This document shows positions 8,117-14,410 of a DNA stretch of 16,505 nt, in pieces (positions within the stretch are counted from its first letter, which is position 1; every line of letters starts with the position of its first letter). Made by a program: the position numbers and the translations under genes. The stretch is taken from contig CAMBPO010000049.1 of NCBI GenBank assembly GCA_945869725.1, forward strand, positions 1 to 16,505, given 5' to 3'. Source of the DNA: Klebsiella pneumoniae (lineage in GTDB: Bacteria; Pseudomonadota; Gammaproteobacteria; Pseudomonadales; Pseudohongiellaceae). Below the pieces are notes generated by a model. That model was not told the origin of the DNA and did not search any database. It saw only the letters and a list, made by a program, of their open reading frames with translations.

Positions 8117-9499
8117 ATGAGCAATAACCGACGACGCCGTCAAAACCTGCCTGCGCATCCCGAAACGCTGACCATCGAGCGTATGAGCCACGAAGGTCGT
8201 GGGGTAGCAAGGATTGATGGAAAAATCGCTTTTGTAGATGGCGCTCTGACCGGTGAGACGGTAACCGCCACATTCACATCCCGCCGAAGCCAGTTTGATG
8301 AACTAAAGCTTTTAGAGGTTCTGCAGGCCTCCGAAAAGCGTGTCCAGGCACCTTGCTCTGTAGCCGCCATTTGTGGCGGTTGCCTGCTGCAACATATGAG
8401 GCTGGACGCACAGATAGAACTGAAACAACAGGTTTTATTCGACCATCTCAAGCACACCGCAGGAATTATTGATTACAGCGTGTTGCCAGCCATGACATCC
8501 TCAACTCAGTCCTATCGAAGAAAGGCTCGCCTGGCTGTCAGGTATGTTCATAAAAAATCGGATGTGCTGGTGGGATTTCGTGAGAAAGCAAACACCTTTA
8601 TTACCGACATGGATCACTGCACGACACTGGTACCCGCTGTTGGCACTCTCATAAAACCCTTACGCGCGCTGATATTGTCTCTGGATGGGTGCCGCGATAT
8701 TCCGCAGATAGAAATTGCCGTTGGTGAAAAATTATGTGTCGCCACTGAGCAACTTGACAGTGTGCTGCGAGTCACGATGACCTTGAGACACATGGAGCCT
8801 TTGTCTGAGGCTGACAGGCAAAAACTGCGTGACTTCGCAGACCATTATCAAATCGAATGGTTTTTGCAATCCGGCGGGCCCAATACCGTGATGCGTTTCT
8901 GGCCAGAAACTGCCGACAATCATTTACAGTATTTTTTGCCTGATGATACCGGAGATCTGTGTATCTCATTTTTCCCGGGCGACTTTACTCAAGTAAATGC
9001 CGACATCAATCGAAAAATGATACATCAGGCGATTGAGTTGCTGGATCTGAAAGATGACGACAATGTTCTGGATCTGTTCTGCGGGCTTGGCAATTTTACC
9101 TTGCCGATGGCCAGACGCTGCCTGTCAGTCACCGGCGTGGAAGGCAGCGAAGACATGGTTGTGCGTGCAGCGCTTAACGCACAAAACAATCAACTGTTGA
9201 ACACGCGGTTTTTTTCTGCGGATTTGTTCACAGATTTTGACAGCACACGCTGGGCTACATCGGGATATAGCAAGTTACTGCTGGATCCGCCTCGCTCCGG
9301 CGCCATCGAACTGGTGTCCCGAATCCGTGAATTGCTTCCGCAAGTCATCGTATACGTCTCCTGCAATCCTGCAACCTTGGCGCGCGATGCAGCGGAGTTG
9401 ACTAAACAGGGGTATCGGTTGACTCATGCCGGCGTCATGGACATGTTCCCCCATACCGGCCATGTCGAATCCATGGCTCGTTTTGAACGAGTCAAATAA
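8117..9499 (+). CDS. rlmD: 23S rRNA (uracil-1939-C5)-methyltransferase RlmD
   Basis: A 460-residue SAM-dependent RNA methyltransferase of the RumA/TrmA family that makes 5-methyluridine at position 1939 of 23S rRNA. An N-terminal TRAM domain (about 13-70, MSHEGRGVARIDGKIAFVDG) precedes four [4Fe-4S] cysteines: Cys80, Cys86, Cys89 and Cys168. The SAM-binding motif VLDLFCGLGNFTL begins at about 317, LLDPPRSGA is at about 388-396, and the catalytic nucleophile Cys416 lies in YVSCNPATL. The four cluster cysteines and the general organisation favour RlmD over RlmC or TrmA. It lies 29 nt after cysM and 12 nt before relA. Confidence 0.94.
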   Translation: MSNNRRRRQNLPAHPETLTIERMSHEGRGVARIDGKIAFVDGALTGETVTATFTSRRSQFDELKLLEVLQASEKRVQAPCSVAAICGGCLLQHMRLDAQIELKQQVLFDHLKHTAGIIDYSVLPAMTSSTQSYRRKARLAVRYVHKKSDVLVGFREKANTFITDMDHCTTLVPAVGTLIKPLRALILSLDGCRDIPQIEIAVGEKLCVATEQLDSVLRVTMTLRHMEPLSEADRQKLRDFADHYQIEWFLQSGGPNTVMRFWPETADNHLQYFLPDDTGDLCISFFPGDFTQVNADINRKMIHQAIELLDLKDDDNVLDLFCGLGNFTLPMARRCLSVTGVEGSEDMVVRAALNAQNNQLLNTRFFSADLFTDFDSTRWATSGYSKLLLDPPRSGAIELVSRIRELLPQVIVYVSCNPATLARDAAELTKQGYRLTHAGVMDMFPHTGHVESMARFERVK

Positions 9500-9511: not shown

Positions 9512-11542
9512 ATGGTCCAGGTTCGCGAAGAGTACTCGTTTAATCCTGACGGCAGCGTCAACTTTGAGCAGTGGCTGAATCGGCTGGAAACATATGTCGG
9601 CCTGTCAAAACACGAAGAATTGCAAAAAGCCTGTCACCTGAGCTGGCAGCTTGAACAACAGACCGTTGCGGAGCATAACGCCTGGTCGCCCGGCATCAGT
9701 AGTTATCGCACCGGCCTGGAGATGGCGGAAATTCTTGCCCAGCTACATCTGGACAGTGAAGCGATTGTTGTCGCATTGTTATATAGGCCTGTGCGCGAGT
9801 CGCGATTACCGCTTGTAGAGGTCAGACAAGAATTTGGCGACAGTGTGGCACGCCTTCTGGAAGGCGTTTTGCGCATGGCCGCAATCAACGAGACTGATAC
9901 CAGCAAAACTCGCGTCCTGGGTCAAAGCCAGGATCAAATTGAAAACGTTCGCAAAATGCTGCTTGCGATGGTTGATGATGTTAGGGTCGCACTGATCAAA
10001 CTGGCGGAAAGAACCTGTGCCATACGTTCTGTCAAAAATGCCAGTGAAGAAAAGCGTCAGCGCGTCGCGAAAGAAATTTTTGATATTTATGCGCCGCTTG
10101 CACACCGACTGGGTATAGGACAACTCAAGTGGGAATTGGAGGACTTATCATTCCGATACCTGCAATCTGATAACTACAAGCGCATCGCCAGCCTGATCGA
10201 TGAGCGCAGGGTAGACAGGGAGCGATTCATCACCGAGGTGACTGAGGAGTTGCGAAGGCAGTTCAATCGTGCAGGAATTGATGCTGAGATAAATGGCCGA
10301 GCTAAAAATATTTACAGCATCTGGCGCAAGATGCAGCGCAAGCAACTAGATTTCAGCCAGATCTATGATATCCGCGCAGTCAGAGTGCTTGTACCCGAAG
10401 TGAGGGACTGTTACGCAGCGCTTGGTATTGTGCACAATATCTGGCGCGTAATTCCGAATGAATTTGACGATTACATCGCCAATCCTAAGGAAAACGGGTA
10501 TCAGTCACTGCATACTGCGGTCATCGGCCCGCATCAGAAAGTTTTCGAGATTCAGATCCGTACTTATGCGATGGATGATGACGCTGAACTGGGGGTCTGC
10601 GCACATTGGCGCTATAAAGAAGGGATTGTAGATCCCAACTATAAAGATGGATTCGAAGAAAAAATTGAGTGGCTACGTCAGGTGCTCGCATGGCACGATG
10701 AAATGGGCATGGTTGGCGGCCTGGCAGAGCAACTACGCAGTGATGCACGAGGGGACGACAGAATATACGTGTTTACACCGGAAGGGCACGTTGTTGATCT
10801 GATGGCTGGCGCTACACCGCTTGATTTTGCGTATTACGTGCACACTGAAGTTGGTCACCACTGTTCAGGGGCGCGTGTTAACGACAAAATTGTTCCGCTT
10901 AACTATCAGCTTAAAACCGGTGACCGGGTAGAAGTCATGTCGAATCCATTAAACATGCCCGATAGAGAATGGCTCAAACCTCACCTGGGTTACGCAAACA
11001 CCCCCAGATCCCGTGCAAAGCTTGTGCAATGGTTCAAATTGCAGAACAAAGAGCAGAATCTGCAGTATGGTAAGGACTGGCTGATGAATGAATTCAAAAG
11101 ACTGGCGATTCGCAATATTCCCTATGAGGAGATTGCGCGAAAGCTGGGCTGTAAGAGTGTCGAGGGGCTGTTTGTGTCAGTAGGCACAGGTGCGATTTCA
11201 GTATCCGAAGTAATCGATATTCTCAGACAGCTCAGAACAGAAGTCGCAACGACTGACTTGTTTTCCGGCATTCAGACTGAGACGCGTGAGCAACAATCCC
11301 TGACTCTGCAACTGGGGATCCTCGCACACGACAGGACGGGGCTGCTGCGCGATGTGTCTACGATACTGGCGGGCGAAAGTATTTACATACTCGCAATCAA
11401 TACACGTAGTAACAGGCAATCTGCCACTGCCTACATGCAACTTGAAATTGAAACTGACTCATTCAGCCGACTGGCACGGGCGCTGGATCACCTTAATGAC
11501 CTTGATAGTGTCATTGAGGCGACTCGTCTGGAGGATCAATAA
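9512..11542 (+). CDS. relA: (p)ppGpp synthetase RelA lacking the zinc-finger/RIS domain
   Basis: A 676-residue long RSH protein that transfers pyrophosphate from ATP to GDP/GTP during the stringent response. The N-terminal domain (about 30-200) is a RelA-type dead hydrolase: GLEMAEILAQLHLDSEAIVV followed by LLYRPVRE, with no HD metal motif. The synthetase domain (about 235-370) has YDIRAVRV with Asp286, the EFDD motif at 317-320 that marks monofunctional RelA (bifunctional enzymes carry RxKD), and FEIQIRT. A TGS domain (about 417-478) and helical segment follow, then a C-terminal ACT domain (about 597-672, HDRTGLLRDVSTILA). The Cys-rich ZFD/RIS domain normally found before ACT (CC-x-P-x-PGD and a later H-x(3)-C) is absent, replaced by about 20 residues. 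E. coli RelA is 744 residues, which agrees with this loss. mazG follows after one base. Confidence 0.95.
   Translation: MVQVREEYSFNPDGSVNFEQWLNRLETYVGLSKHEELQKACHLSWQLEQQTVAEHNAWSPGISSYRTGLEMAEILAQLHLDSEAIVVALLYRPVRESRLPLVEVRQEFGDSVARLLEGVLRMAAINETDTSKTRVLGQSQDQIENVRKMLLAMVDDVRVALIKLAERTCAIRSVKNASEEKRQRVAKEIFDIYAPLAHRLGIGQLKWELEDLSFRYLQSDNYKRIASLIDERRVDRERFITEVTEELRRQFNRAGIDAEINGRAKNIYSIWRKMQRKQLDFSQIYDIRAVRVLVPEVRDCYAALGIVHNIWRVIPNEFDDYIANPKENGYQSLHTAVIGPHQKVFEIQIRTYAMDDDAELGVCAHWRYKEGIVDPNYKDGFEEKIEWLRQVLAWHDEMGMVGGLAEQLRSDARGDDRIYVFTPEGHVVDLMAGATPLDFAYYVHTEVGHHCSGARVNDKIVPLNYQLKTGDRVEVMSNPLNMPDREWLKPHLGYANTPRSRAKLVQWFKLQNKEQNLQYGKDWLMNEFKRLAIRNIPYEEIARKLGCKSVEGLFVSVGTGAISVSEVIDILRQLRTEVATTDLFSGIQTETREQQSLTLQLGILAHDRTGLLRDVSTILAGESIYILAINTRSNRQSATAYMQLEIETDSFSRLARALDHLNDLDSVIEATRLEDQ
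11530..11534 (+). promoter_or_regulatory. ribosome binding site that sets the mazG start
   Basis: GGAGG lies inside the last codons of relA, 9 nt before the GTG at 11544. It decides the mazG start against the in-frame ATG at 11352, which lies deep inside relA and would add 64 residues unlike MazG. The arrangement suggests translational coupling between relA and mazG. Confidence 0.75.
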
Positions 11543-11543
11543 C

Positions 11544-12377
11544 GTGAAAAGTAATCTCTCACAATCTGAGGCCATTGAAACACTGCTGACTTTGATGGCA
11601 AACCTAAGAGATCCTCAAAACGGATGCTCATGGGACCGAAAACAGACTCTTTCATCCCTGACCCGACATACACTTGAGGAAGTTTATGAGGTGATTGATG
11701 CCATAGATCAAGGCAATCCTGAAAAAATCTGTGATGAACTTGGGGATTTGCTGTTTCAAGTGGTATTTTACGCTCGGATTGCTCAGGAACAGGGCTGGTT
11801 CGATCTGAAAGATGTTGCTGAGGCGATTACACAAAAATTGTTACATCGACATCCTCATATTTTCCCAGATGGAACACTTGGCAGCTTTGGTCAGGCAACT
11901 TCATTGACCGCCCAGGAAGTTGAAAGAAACTGGGAAAAAATAAAAAATGTGGAACGAGTACGCGAGGCGCAAGGACGCTCTGTCAGTGTGATGGACGATG
12001 TGCCAACATCCATGCCCGCGCTGGACAGAGCCGCAAAACTTCAAAAACGTGCTGCTTCCGTTGGTTTTGACTGGTCAAGTGCTGGGGGGGTGATAGCCAA
12101 ACTTGATGAAGAAGTCATCGAATTAAAGGAAGCCGTATCATCAGGTAACGAAAAGCAGCAACATCACGAGTTGGGTGATTTGCTTTTTACTTGCGTCAAC
12201 CTCGCTCGACATCTCGGGCTGGATCCTGATGCGACATTGAGAGATGCAAACAAAAGATTTGAATCACGATTCAAATTCATTGAACAAACAGCGGCCAGAT
12301 CTGATAAAGATTTGGCAGAGTGTGATGTCACCCTGCTTGACCAGTGGTGGCAAGACGCAAAAAATCAGAAAAATTAA
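11544..12377 (+). CDS. mazG: Nucleoside triphosphate pyrophosphohydrolase MazG
   Basis: A 277-residue protein (from GTG 11544) that hydrolyses NTPs and dNTPs to monophosphates and pyrophosphate; in E. coli it is linked to lowering ppGpp and to stress survival. It contains two MazG repeats. The first has Glu45, Glu46 and Glu49 (LEEVYEV), then Glu64 and Asp67 in DELGDLLFQ. The second has EEVIELKEA at about 189-197, then HELGDLLF with Glu209 and Asp212. The N-terminal DPQNGCSWDRKQT motif is diagnostic of the long two-domain form. The start one base after the relA stop and the shared operon fit a role balancing nucleotide and alarmone pools with RelA. Confidence 0.93.
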   Translation: MKSNLSQSEAIETLLTLMANLRDPQNGCSWDRKQTLSSLTRHTLEEVYEVIDAIDQGNPEKICDELGDLLFQVVFYARIAQEQGWFDLKDVAEAITQKLLHRHPHIFPDGTLGSFGQATSLTAQEVERNWEKIKNVERVREAQGRSVSVMDDVPTSMPALDRAAKLQKRAASVGFDWSSAGGVIAKLDEEVIELKEAVSSGNEKQQHHELGDLLFTCVNLARHLGLDPDATLRDANKRFESRFKFIEQTAARSDKDLAECDVTLLDQWWQDAKNQKN

Positions 12378-13210: not shown

Positions 13211-14410
13211 ATGGCCAAAGTAAAAGCGAAAAAGAAAACGTCTGCCGTGTCAGCAGTAAAAAAATTGAAAGACGCTGCCTTGGCAAAAGCAGAAGCCTCT
13301 CTGGCAAAAGTTGAAAAAGAACTTGCAGCCGGAAAAAAGAAACTGGAAGCCGCTGAAGCCAAAGTAAAGGCCGCAGCAGTTAAAGCAGCAAAAAGTACTA
13401 CCGCAGCTGGAAAAAAGGCTTTGCTGAGTGCTCAAACCGCCGCAAAAAATGCTGCCGGAAACTTGACCGCCATAAACGATAAACTCAAGGCTGCCAGATC
13501 GCAGGTGAAAACCATCTCTGATTCAGCAAAAGCTAAAGCTGCAATAGAAGCGACAAAACAGTCCGCCGAAGCACGCAAGGCACAGATTGCCGCCAAAGCT
13601 GAAGCTGATCTTGATAAAGCAGTTAAAGCATTTGCCGCCCAGTTCGTAAAGAAACGTAAAAAATCCGATGCAGCGAAAGAAGCTGCCCGAAACAAAAAAC
13701 AAAAGAACAAAGAAAAAGCTGCTGCAAAAAAAGCTGCTGCTAAAGCAAAATCAGCTGCCAGAAAAGCCGCTGCTAAAGCCAAGTCTTTAGCAAAATCGAT
13801 TGCAGTCCGCGAAAAGGCCGCGGCAAAAAAAGCTGCAGCGAAAGCAAAAGCCGCAGCAAAATTAAAAGCAACCCGCGATAAAGCTGCTGCAAAGAAAGCT
13901 GCAATCCAGGCAAAAATTGCTAAAGCGAATGCAAAAGCTAAACCTGCCAAAAGCGCAACTGCCATAAAAGCAGCCGTAAAACCCGCAGCAGCAAAACCAG
14001 CAGTTAAAGCAGCTGCGGCGACCAAATCGCCTAAAAAAGCACCCCTCGCCAAGAAGGCTGCAGCAAAACCAGCGCTAAAAAAAGCATCAGCGAAAAAGCA
14101 GGCTGCAAAACCCGCAGCTGCTAAGGCTCCTGCAAAGAAAGCTGGGACCAAACTCATTTCCGCACCAAAAGCAGCAATCAAGAAAGTAGTTGCTGCGAAA
14201 AAACCTGCTGCTGTCAAAGCTGCCGCCAAACCAGCGGTAACCAAGCCAGCAGCAGCTAAAGCAGCCGCTGCGAAAAAAGCTCCGGTTGTAGTAGGCAAAT
14301 CAGCTGCGACCAAGGCGCCTGCCAAACGTGCAGTTAAAAAGCCACAAGCTGCTGCGACAACCCCCGCTGCACCTTCGGCACCTGCCGCAGAAGCGACAGT
14401 TCAAAGCTGA
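13211..14410 (+). CDS. Histone H1-like, Lys/Ala-rich coiled-coil protein (AlgP-like)
   Basis: A 399-residue, extremely basic protein made almost entirely of Ala, Lys, Val, Pro and Ser. Residues 1-150 form a predicted long helix with coiled-coil character (KAEASLAKVEKELAAGKKKL, then alternating Ala/Lys/Glu heptads). Residues 150-240 carry near-exact KAAAKKAAAKAK repeats. From about 245 to the end the sequence becomes Pro-containing (KPAAAKPAVKAAA style), like the disordered tail of histone H1. This layout matches AlgP/AlgR3 of Pseudomonas, an H1-like DNA-binding regulator of alginate genes, but low-complexity composition makes homology claims weak. Likely role, by inference, is non-specific DNA binding and compaction. 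It stands between adk and tsaB. Use of AAA for Lys makes the coding strand strongly A-rich. Confidence 0.8.
   Translation: MAKVKAKKKTSAVSAVKKLKDAALAKAEASLAKVEKELAAGKKKLEAAEAKVKAAAVKAAKSTTAAGKKALLSAQTAAKNAAGNLTAINDKLKAARSQVKTISDSAKAKAAIEATKQSAEARKAQIAAKAEADLDKAVKAFAAQFVKKRKKSDAAKEAARNKKQKNKEKAAAKKAAAKAKSAARKAAAKAKSLAKSIAVREKAAAKKAAAKAKAAAKLKATRDKAAAKKAAIQAKIAKANAKAKPAKSATAIKAAVKPAAAKPAVKAAAATKSPKKAPLAKKAAAKPALKKASAKKQAAKPAAAKAPAKKAGTKLISAPKAAIKKVVAAKKPAAVKAAAKPAVTKPAAAKAAAAKKAPVVVGKSAATKAPAKRAVKKPQAAATTPAAPSAPAAEATVQS
13712..13915 (+). repeat. three copies of a 13-residue Lys/Ala repeat within the H1-like gene
   Basis: The segments starting at residues 168, 201 and 223 (nt 13712, 13811 and 13877) read EKAAAKKAAAKAK, EKAAAKKAAAKAK and DKAAAKKAAIQAK. 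The last two are preceded by VR and TR. The nucleotide copies differ at third positions, so the repeat has been kept at protein level while drifting at DNA level. Confidence 0.75.

Follow-up and report, generated by a model that had tools for sequence, protein, structure and literature searches.

The window analysed here, a stretch of 16,505 nucleotides, carries on its forward strand a relA gene (9512–11542) whose 676-residue product lacks the RIS/zinc-finger domain, as judged from the list of open reading frames, Pfam and NCBIfam matches, and a phmmer comparison with E. coli RelA. An rlmD-like gene for a 23S rRNA methyltransferase lies directly upstream (8117–9499) and a mazG-like gene with a GTG start lies directly downstream (11544–12377), both on the forward strand, taken from the list of open reading frames and named from their protein sequences. 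The gene order rlmD-relA-mazG is shared with E. coli, and the mazEF genes of E. coli are absent from the window locus. The forward strand also holds, at 13211–14410, a 399-residue frame that is extremely rich in alanine and lysine and that presumably resembles histone-H1-like or AlgP-like repeat proteins.

All domains of the window RelA are encoded on the forward strand. The N-terminal domain is an HD-like pseudo-hydrolase (residues about 1–230, 9512–10201; Pfam HD_4 at residues 49–202, and alignment), in which ALLYRPVRES is aligned at the place of the missing HDxxED motif. It is followed by a (p)ppGpp synthetase domain (residues 262–371, 10295–10624; Pfam PF04607), which is of the EFDDY type by column counts and retains, in the aligned columns, the equivalents of E. 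coli G251, D275 and E335. Both features agree with an earlier, sequence-only reading of this DNA, which had described a retained EFDD synthetase and pseudo-hydrolase. The TGS domain (residues 418–475, 10763–10936; Pfam PF02824) contains H444, the counterpart of E. coli H432, which reads the CCA end of tRNA. The alpha-helical (AH) domain (residues about 485–578, 10964–11245; alignment) ends in a predicted helix, residues 564–578 (11201–11245), located at the position of Linker Helix 2. The ACT/RRM domain (residues 595–672, 11294–11527; Pfam ACT_4, 44 bits) is confidently modelled as a beta-alpha-beta-beta-alpha-beta fold that resembles the ACT structures of Rel proteins. The structure model of the whole protein has a mean pLDDT of 67 and a pTM of 0.41, with a poor catalytic half, and the C-terminal half alone was used.

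The window protein is a genuine orthologue of RelA and comes from a Pseudohongiella-like gammaproteobacterium. Together with the loss of HDxxED, the EFDD-type synthetase and the gene order, its nearest kin place it in the RelA orthologous group, other RelA proteins being 68–98% identical and SpoT 36% (genome G001). It passes the broader family model TIGR00691 spoT_relA (513.7 versus a cut-off of 499.2) and misses the equivalog PRK10872 (664.2 bits versus a cut-off of 728), for which the best-matching stretch extends to residue 573. The protein possesses the TGS domain with the CCA-binding histidine, AH and ACT, and lacks the RIS/ZFD/CC domain with its CC...H-x3-C signature; it therefore lies outside the canonical six-domain long RSH.

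In the phmmer alignment with E. coli RelA (5iqr), residues 62–574 of the window RelA match residues 54–563, and residues 595–674 match residues 663–742, leaving 20 residues (575–594) between the two blocks versus 99 (564–662) in E. coli. The sequence-only reading had proposed a RelA without RIS, with only about 20 residues before ACT, and had placed the gap at 11200–11310; the alignment bears out both points. Its figure of 70–90 residues as usual for long RSHs is slightly low, the span being about 99 in E. coli. Specifically, RIS is replaced by a tether of about 16 residues (residues 579–594, 11246–11293, delimited by pLDDT, dN/dS and length counts), a net loss of about 60–80 residues. Measured from the end of AH (window residue 574) to an aspartate of ACT (window residue 607), the span is 31–34 residues in 24 alignment rows of the window's clade and 34–52 in 8 rows of a second RIS-less group, versus 94–106 in 20 RIS-bearing rows of the same family and 101–111 in 9 other rows including E. 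coli. The Pfam model RelA_AH_RIS matches the window RelA through its AH half alone (profile positions 8–85 of 185), with 15.9 bits against a cut-off of 23.8. Furthermore, a motif search and the alignment found no CC-x-P...H-x3-C motif anywhere in the window RelA, and the alignment likewise revealed no diverged RIS elsewhere in the protein. Tether residues 579–593 have pLDDT values below 50 and are predicted to be disordered.

In 137 genomes of the window's family (f1; genera g1–g8), RelA proper turned up in all g1 genomes but one (14 of 15, the one without it being 72% complete), in the single g5 genome, and in 13 of 14 g6 genomes. RIS is missing from all 14 g1 proteins and the g5 protein, and is kept in all 13 g6 proteins, so that the absence is a clade-wide trait (15 of 15 RelA found in g1 and g5), one of the options that the sequence-only reading had listed. 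Genus g1 probably corresponds to Pseudohongiella, judging from named relatives; for example, the tree columns of the g1 locus L102 are identical to those of P. nitratireducens L011. RIS-less RelA occurs in records titled Pseudohongiella sp. O18, P. nitratireducens SCS-49 and LSUCC0112. In g2, g3, g4, g7 and g8, the listed matches are SpoT-like (33–38% identity) and none is RelA, an apparent total loss of relA in gammaproteobacteria alongside the RIS loss of sister genera. The genera without RelA include genomes that are 97–100% complete; g4 is represented by one genome, 92% complete. In g2 genomes such as G002, G005 and G007 there is a second PF04607 match besides SpoT, perhaps a small alarmone synthetase, and even the top match is weak in G009 (5.1e-21) and G011 (3.5e-18).

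Among the best 120 of 7989 database relatives, 116 are longer than 640 residues, and 78 of those lack CC...HxxxC. The RIS-less proteins number 77 of these 116 near full-length relatives, many of them nearly identical, with P0084 left out for partial RIS loss. P0084 (733 residues) is very like P0093 (753 residues) and lacks about 20 RIS residues including the CC pair; it is encoded on a lone 2590-base contig, and may be an error such as a collapsed assembly, a deletion confined to its strain, or an intermediate. Some RIS-less relatives (P0033, P0040 and P0046) carry names of the 'bifunctional synthetase/hydrolase' type, and HDxxED is absent from them in the alignment. Among 78 genome-contig loci, all but L070 were read, and of these 77, 12 are RIS-less and 65 are RIS-bearing (61 by motif and 4 by alignment). 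Several candidates for RIS-less RelA were rejected, as they were products of an over-strict motif and RIS is present by alignment (L046, L047, L049, L050, L051, L053, L054, L055, L057, L058, L059, L060, L064, L065, L071, L072, P0080 and P0107). Two loci, L006 (in a record titled Rhodoferax sp. OV413 MAG) and L015 (Klebsiella pneumoniae MAG), bear RelA of the Pseudohongiellaceae type, and their labels or bins therefore look wrong.

At the order level (293 genomes, at least 270 with a match, 150 listed), a single alignment runs through the end of ACT in 7 g1 rows only, with frames of 679–710 residues; in the other 143 listed rows, the alignment ends at 568–600 and the frames have at least 739 residues. 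At the class level (369 genomes, at least 235 with a match, 150 listed), G001 alone is aligned through to the end. At both levels, the criteria for a row were where its alignment ends and how long its frame is, and ten class-level rows, mostly picked for short frames, were inspected individually, leaving out G654 (600 residues) and G683 (650 residues), whose shorter frames lie at contig ends. CC...HxxxC is present in 10 of 10, and the short rows among them either reach the end of their contig, have a broken frame or lack residues outside RIS. By these criteria, no further RIS-less RelA was found among the 150 order-level and 150 class-level matches listed.

A tree built on the catalytic, TGS and AH columns, with RIS and ACT excluded, recovers the window's clade as monophyletic (support 100/99) and groups the second RIS-less group (the g5 locus L103 and its kin) with the RIS-bearing protein P0078 (95/99). 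A topology that unites every RIS-less row is weakly rejected (p-AU 0.026), and two independent losses of RIS are weakly favoured, a reading that hangs on P0078, one protein from one contig. The second RIS-less group forms one clade in 16% of bootstraps of the careful tree and has a support of 83 in a quick tree that included more rows. One loss with a later regain of RIS is also possible. E. coli R629, a RIS residue located beside the A-site finger, is arginine in 8 of 8 outgroup rows and in 0 of 20 RIS-bearing rows of the family, suggesting that the RIS contact may have weakened ahead of the deletions. At this position, family members with RIS, such as L104, L106 and P0116, have N, H, G or E.

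RIS-less RelA is under purifying selection apart from the tether. All 32 RIS-less rows carry the equivalents of G251, D275, E335 and TGS H432 without exception; the histidine is present in 24 of 24 rows of the window's clade and 8 of 8 of the second group, and equally in the RIS-bearing rows of the family (20 of 20) and in the outgroup (8 of 8). We defined conserved columns as those with at least 95% identity in 29 RIS-bearing rows, and altered columns as those changed in at least one quarter of the rows of a group. In the window's clade (24 rows), altered columns number 2 of 65 in HD, 0 of 70 in the synthetase, 0 of 26 in TGS, 1 of 13 in AH and 0 of 12 in ACT; in the second group (8 rows), there are 2 in the synthetase, 1 in ACT and none in TGS or AH. 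Between the window and L001, dN/dS is 0.005/0.177 for the synthetase, 0.007/0.071 for TGS, 0.010/0.241 for AH, 0.024/0.215 for ACT and 0.129/0.316 for the tether. The pooled dN/dS is 0.138 for ACT (15 pairs) and 0.75 for the tether (18 pairs), limited to pairs with dS of 0–1.5 (5–18 pairs per domain), many other pairs being saturated. The tether, measured on residues 575–596, thus has the highest dN/dS within RelA and is weakly constrained. The invariant catalytic residues, the kept columns and the low dN/dS indicate that RIS-less RelA is being maintained, with loose constraint on the tether, and that the gene is no pseudogene.

The C-terminal domains nevertheless evolve faster in RIS-less proteins than in RIS-bearing ones. 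Relative to the catalytic half, and compared with g6-like RIS-bearing rows, the rate in the window's clade is 1.65-fold for TGS, 1.61-fold for AH and 2.04-fold for ACT, and that in the second RIS-less group is 1.96-fold, 1.43-fold and 1.46-fold, respectively (60 column bootstraps; ratio at most 1 in 0–4 of 60). In ACT, the equivalent of R739, which contacts the A-site finger in E. coli, is arginine in all 20 RIS-bearing rows of the family, in 10 of 24 rows of the window's clade and in 5 of 8 rows of the second group. Together, the faster change of TGS, AH and ACT and the variation of R739 indicate that the ribosome interface is held less tightly in RIS-less RelA, and they allow a weakening of ribosome dependence altogether. 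The loss of R739 is not decisive, because this residue also varies in the outgroup (arginine in 1 of 8 rows). The equivalent of R670, the second ACT residue located at the finger, is a residue other than arginine in 31 of 32 RIS-less rows and likewise in all 20 RIS-bearing rows of the family.

A search for spoT, which the sequence-only reading had proposed, was run in the g1 and g5 relatives. SpoT with HDxxED, the synthetase motif and CC...HxxxC is present in 16 of 16 genomes (15 of g1, including G024, and 1 of g5), and all 14 g1 genomes bearing RelA have a separate SpoT. When 70 residues of RIS were used to search 13 RIS-less genomes (12 of g1 and 1 of g5), the only matches below E = 0.05 belonged to SpoT, giving no sign of a detached RIS. 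There is no frame of the size of a short alarmone synthetase among the listed PF04607 matches of g1; the third match of G023 falls outside the listing.

On the ribosome side, the relevant stretch of 23S rRNA was recovered from 6 of 17 genomes (5 of 7 for g1, 1 of 2 for g8 and 0 of 5 for g6). Nucleotides 883–888 and 892–896, which make the RIS and ACT contacts on the A-site finger, are identical to those of E. coli in 5 of 5 g1 genomes and likewise in G135, a g8 genome in which no RelA was found. Other positions of the finger differ from E. coli at 13–15 of 95 columns in g1 and at 17 of 95 in G135, and the g1 flanks differ at 21–26 of 236 columns, a slightly lower share than the finger. A change of the A-site finger as compensation for the loss of RIS was rejected, since in the five g1 genomes and G135 the contact nucleotides are unaltered and the differences lie elsewhere.

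In E. coli, RIS and ACT are reported to anchor RelA at intersubunit bridge B1a even without tRNA, RIS contacting the A-site finger and S19 and ACT contacting the finger and L16, and Linker Helix 2 packs on ACT after tRNA binding (PMC4974054). The comparisons above, all made on sequences and models, are consistent with the proposal of the sequence-only reading that a RelA lacking RIS would bind or sense ribosomes differently. We give a probability of about one half to a specific form of this proposal, in which RIS-less RelA would still be activated by the ribosome and tRNA, and would be recruited mainly with deacylated tRNA, without pre-docking at B1a. Ribosome-bound deacylated tRNA would still trigger (p)ppGpp synthesis by the protein, and its activation would proceed via the contact of TGS with the CCA end, the contact of AH with tRNA, and ACT beside Linker Helix 2, where the length of the tether would let ACT lie. 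Pre-docking through RIS at B1a (A-site finger and S19) would be lost; therefore RIS-less RelA would bind ribosomes with an empty A site poorly and would depend mainly on recruitment with deacylated tRNA. The response would have a higher threshold or a slower onset, and SpoT, with RIS intact, would supply hydrolysis and probably basal synthesis. Truncations of the A-site finger reduce activation of E. coli RelA 30- and 4-fold and leave residual activity (PMC5829649), suggesting that a RelA without RIS could work. In B. subtilis, a CC-to-AA mutant of the Rel zinc finger is reported still to support growth on minimal medium (PMC7058999).

A more radical version, with clearly less than even chances, is that the order of recruitment is reversed, RIS-less RelA entering only together with deacylated tRNA or acting off the ribosome. 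If the order is indeed reversed, a stringent response could work without pre-docking by RIS, whose loss could serve as a tuning step.

Loss of RIS might instead have uncoupled RelA from starved ribosomes, leaving a low-level off-ribosome synthetase restrained by TGS, AH and ACT or by an ACT ligand. The RIS mutation C638F, which lets E. coli RelA synthesise (p)ppGpp without ribosomes (PMC7669825), and the relatively relaxed TGS, AH and ACT of both RIS-less clades are in line with such uncoupling. We consider it unlikely, since the H432 equivalent is retained in 32 of 32 RIS-less rows, nearly all strongly conserved columns of TGS, AH and ACT are kept, and the contact nucleotides of the A-site finger are unaltered in 5 of 5 g1 genomes. 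Moreover, B. subtilis Rel without RRM and ZFD is described as almost non-toxic (PMC7058999), so that losing these domains need not activate Rel. A slightly poorer candidate is decay of RelA across the family, with erosion of its ribosome contacts, deletion of RIS, and disappearance of the whole gene from other genera, which are left with SpoT only; RIS-less RelA would then be a near-useless remnant. The retention of RelA in 14 of 15 g1 genomes (the exception being 72% complete), with invariant catalytic residues, low dN/dS in every folded domain and intact frames, runs against decay, which would otherwise account for the lack of RelA in g2, g3, g7 and g8 (some genomes being 97–100% complete) and in the single g4 genome, for the non-arginine residue at the R629 position in all 20 RIS-bearing rows of the family, and for the faster change of TGS, AH and ACT in RIS-less clades. 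Finally, an assembly collapse or a deletion confined to the window's strain was rejected as exceedingly improbable, as the same architecture occurs in named Pseudohongiella records and many other assemblies.

The preferred reading, recruitment mainly with deacylated tRNA, bears on how RelA finds stalled ribosomes. One model, from PMC5829649, has RelA bind the empty ribosome first and then recruit tRNA; another, from crosslinking, has it arrive as a RelA-tRNA complex (PMC8012599). A RelA that combines the absence of RIS with tRNA recognition, ACT and unchanged docking nucleotides could help to decide between these models with no need for engineered mutants, and its close RIS-bearing kin in g6 make it a natural comparison.

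The closest known system is E. coli RelA (5iqr, 5kps and 5l3p), which resembles the window RelA in its pseudo-hydrolase, EFDD synthetase, TGS histidine for CCA, AH, ACT and gene order, and differs in residues 564–662, mostly RIS with C612, C613 and C638, where the window RelA has the short tether. Among natural domain losses, SpoT of Haemophilus ducreyi and Actinobacillus pleuropneumoniae has lost the conserved-cysteine domain and kept ACT (Atkinson 2011, PMC3153485); that case concerns SpoT and includes loss of the helical domain, whereas the present case concerns RelA, RIS alone and the whole sampled genus. RelA of Francisella and Methylotenera also lacks one C-terminal regulatory domain, but this is ACT, not RIS (PMC3153485), and Francisella RelA without ACT is reported to be wild-type-like in assays (PMC6719525). 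Some RSHs are without both CC and ACT, and in plant Rsh1, a plastid long RSH, the CC domain is unconserved but not cleanly absent as in the window RelA (PMC3153485). Engineered delta-RRM and delta-ZFD-RRM forms of E. coli RelA and B. subtilis Rel remove the C-terminal domains singly or jointly (PMC6719525 and PMC7058999); removal of ZFD alone with RRM/ACT kept, which is exactly the state of the window RelA, does not appear in the accessible sections of these two papers. A RelA lacking RIS alone is likewise absent from the domain-loss list in the accessible part of PMC3153485 and from the other literature searched, and may exist in print. Judged against these sources, rare domain losses in RSHs are already known, and a RelA that has lost RIS only appears to be new.
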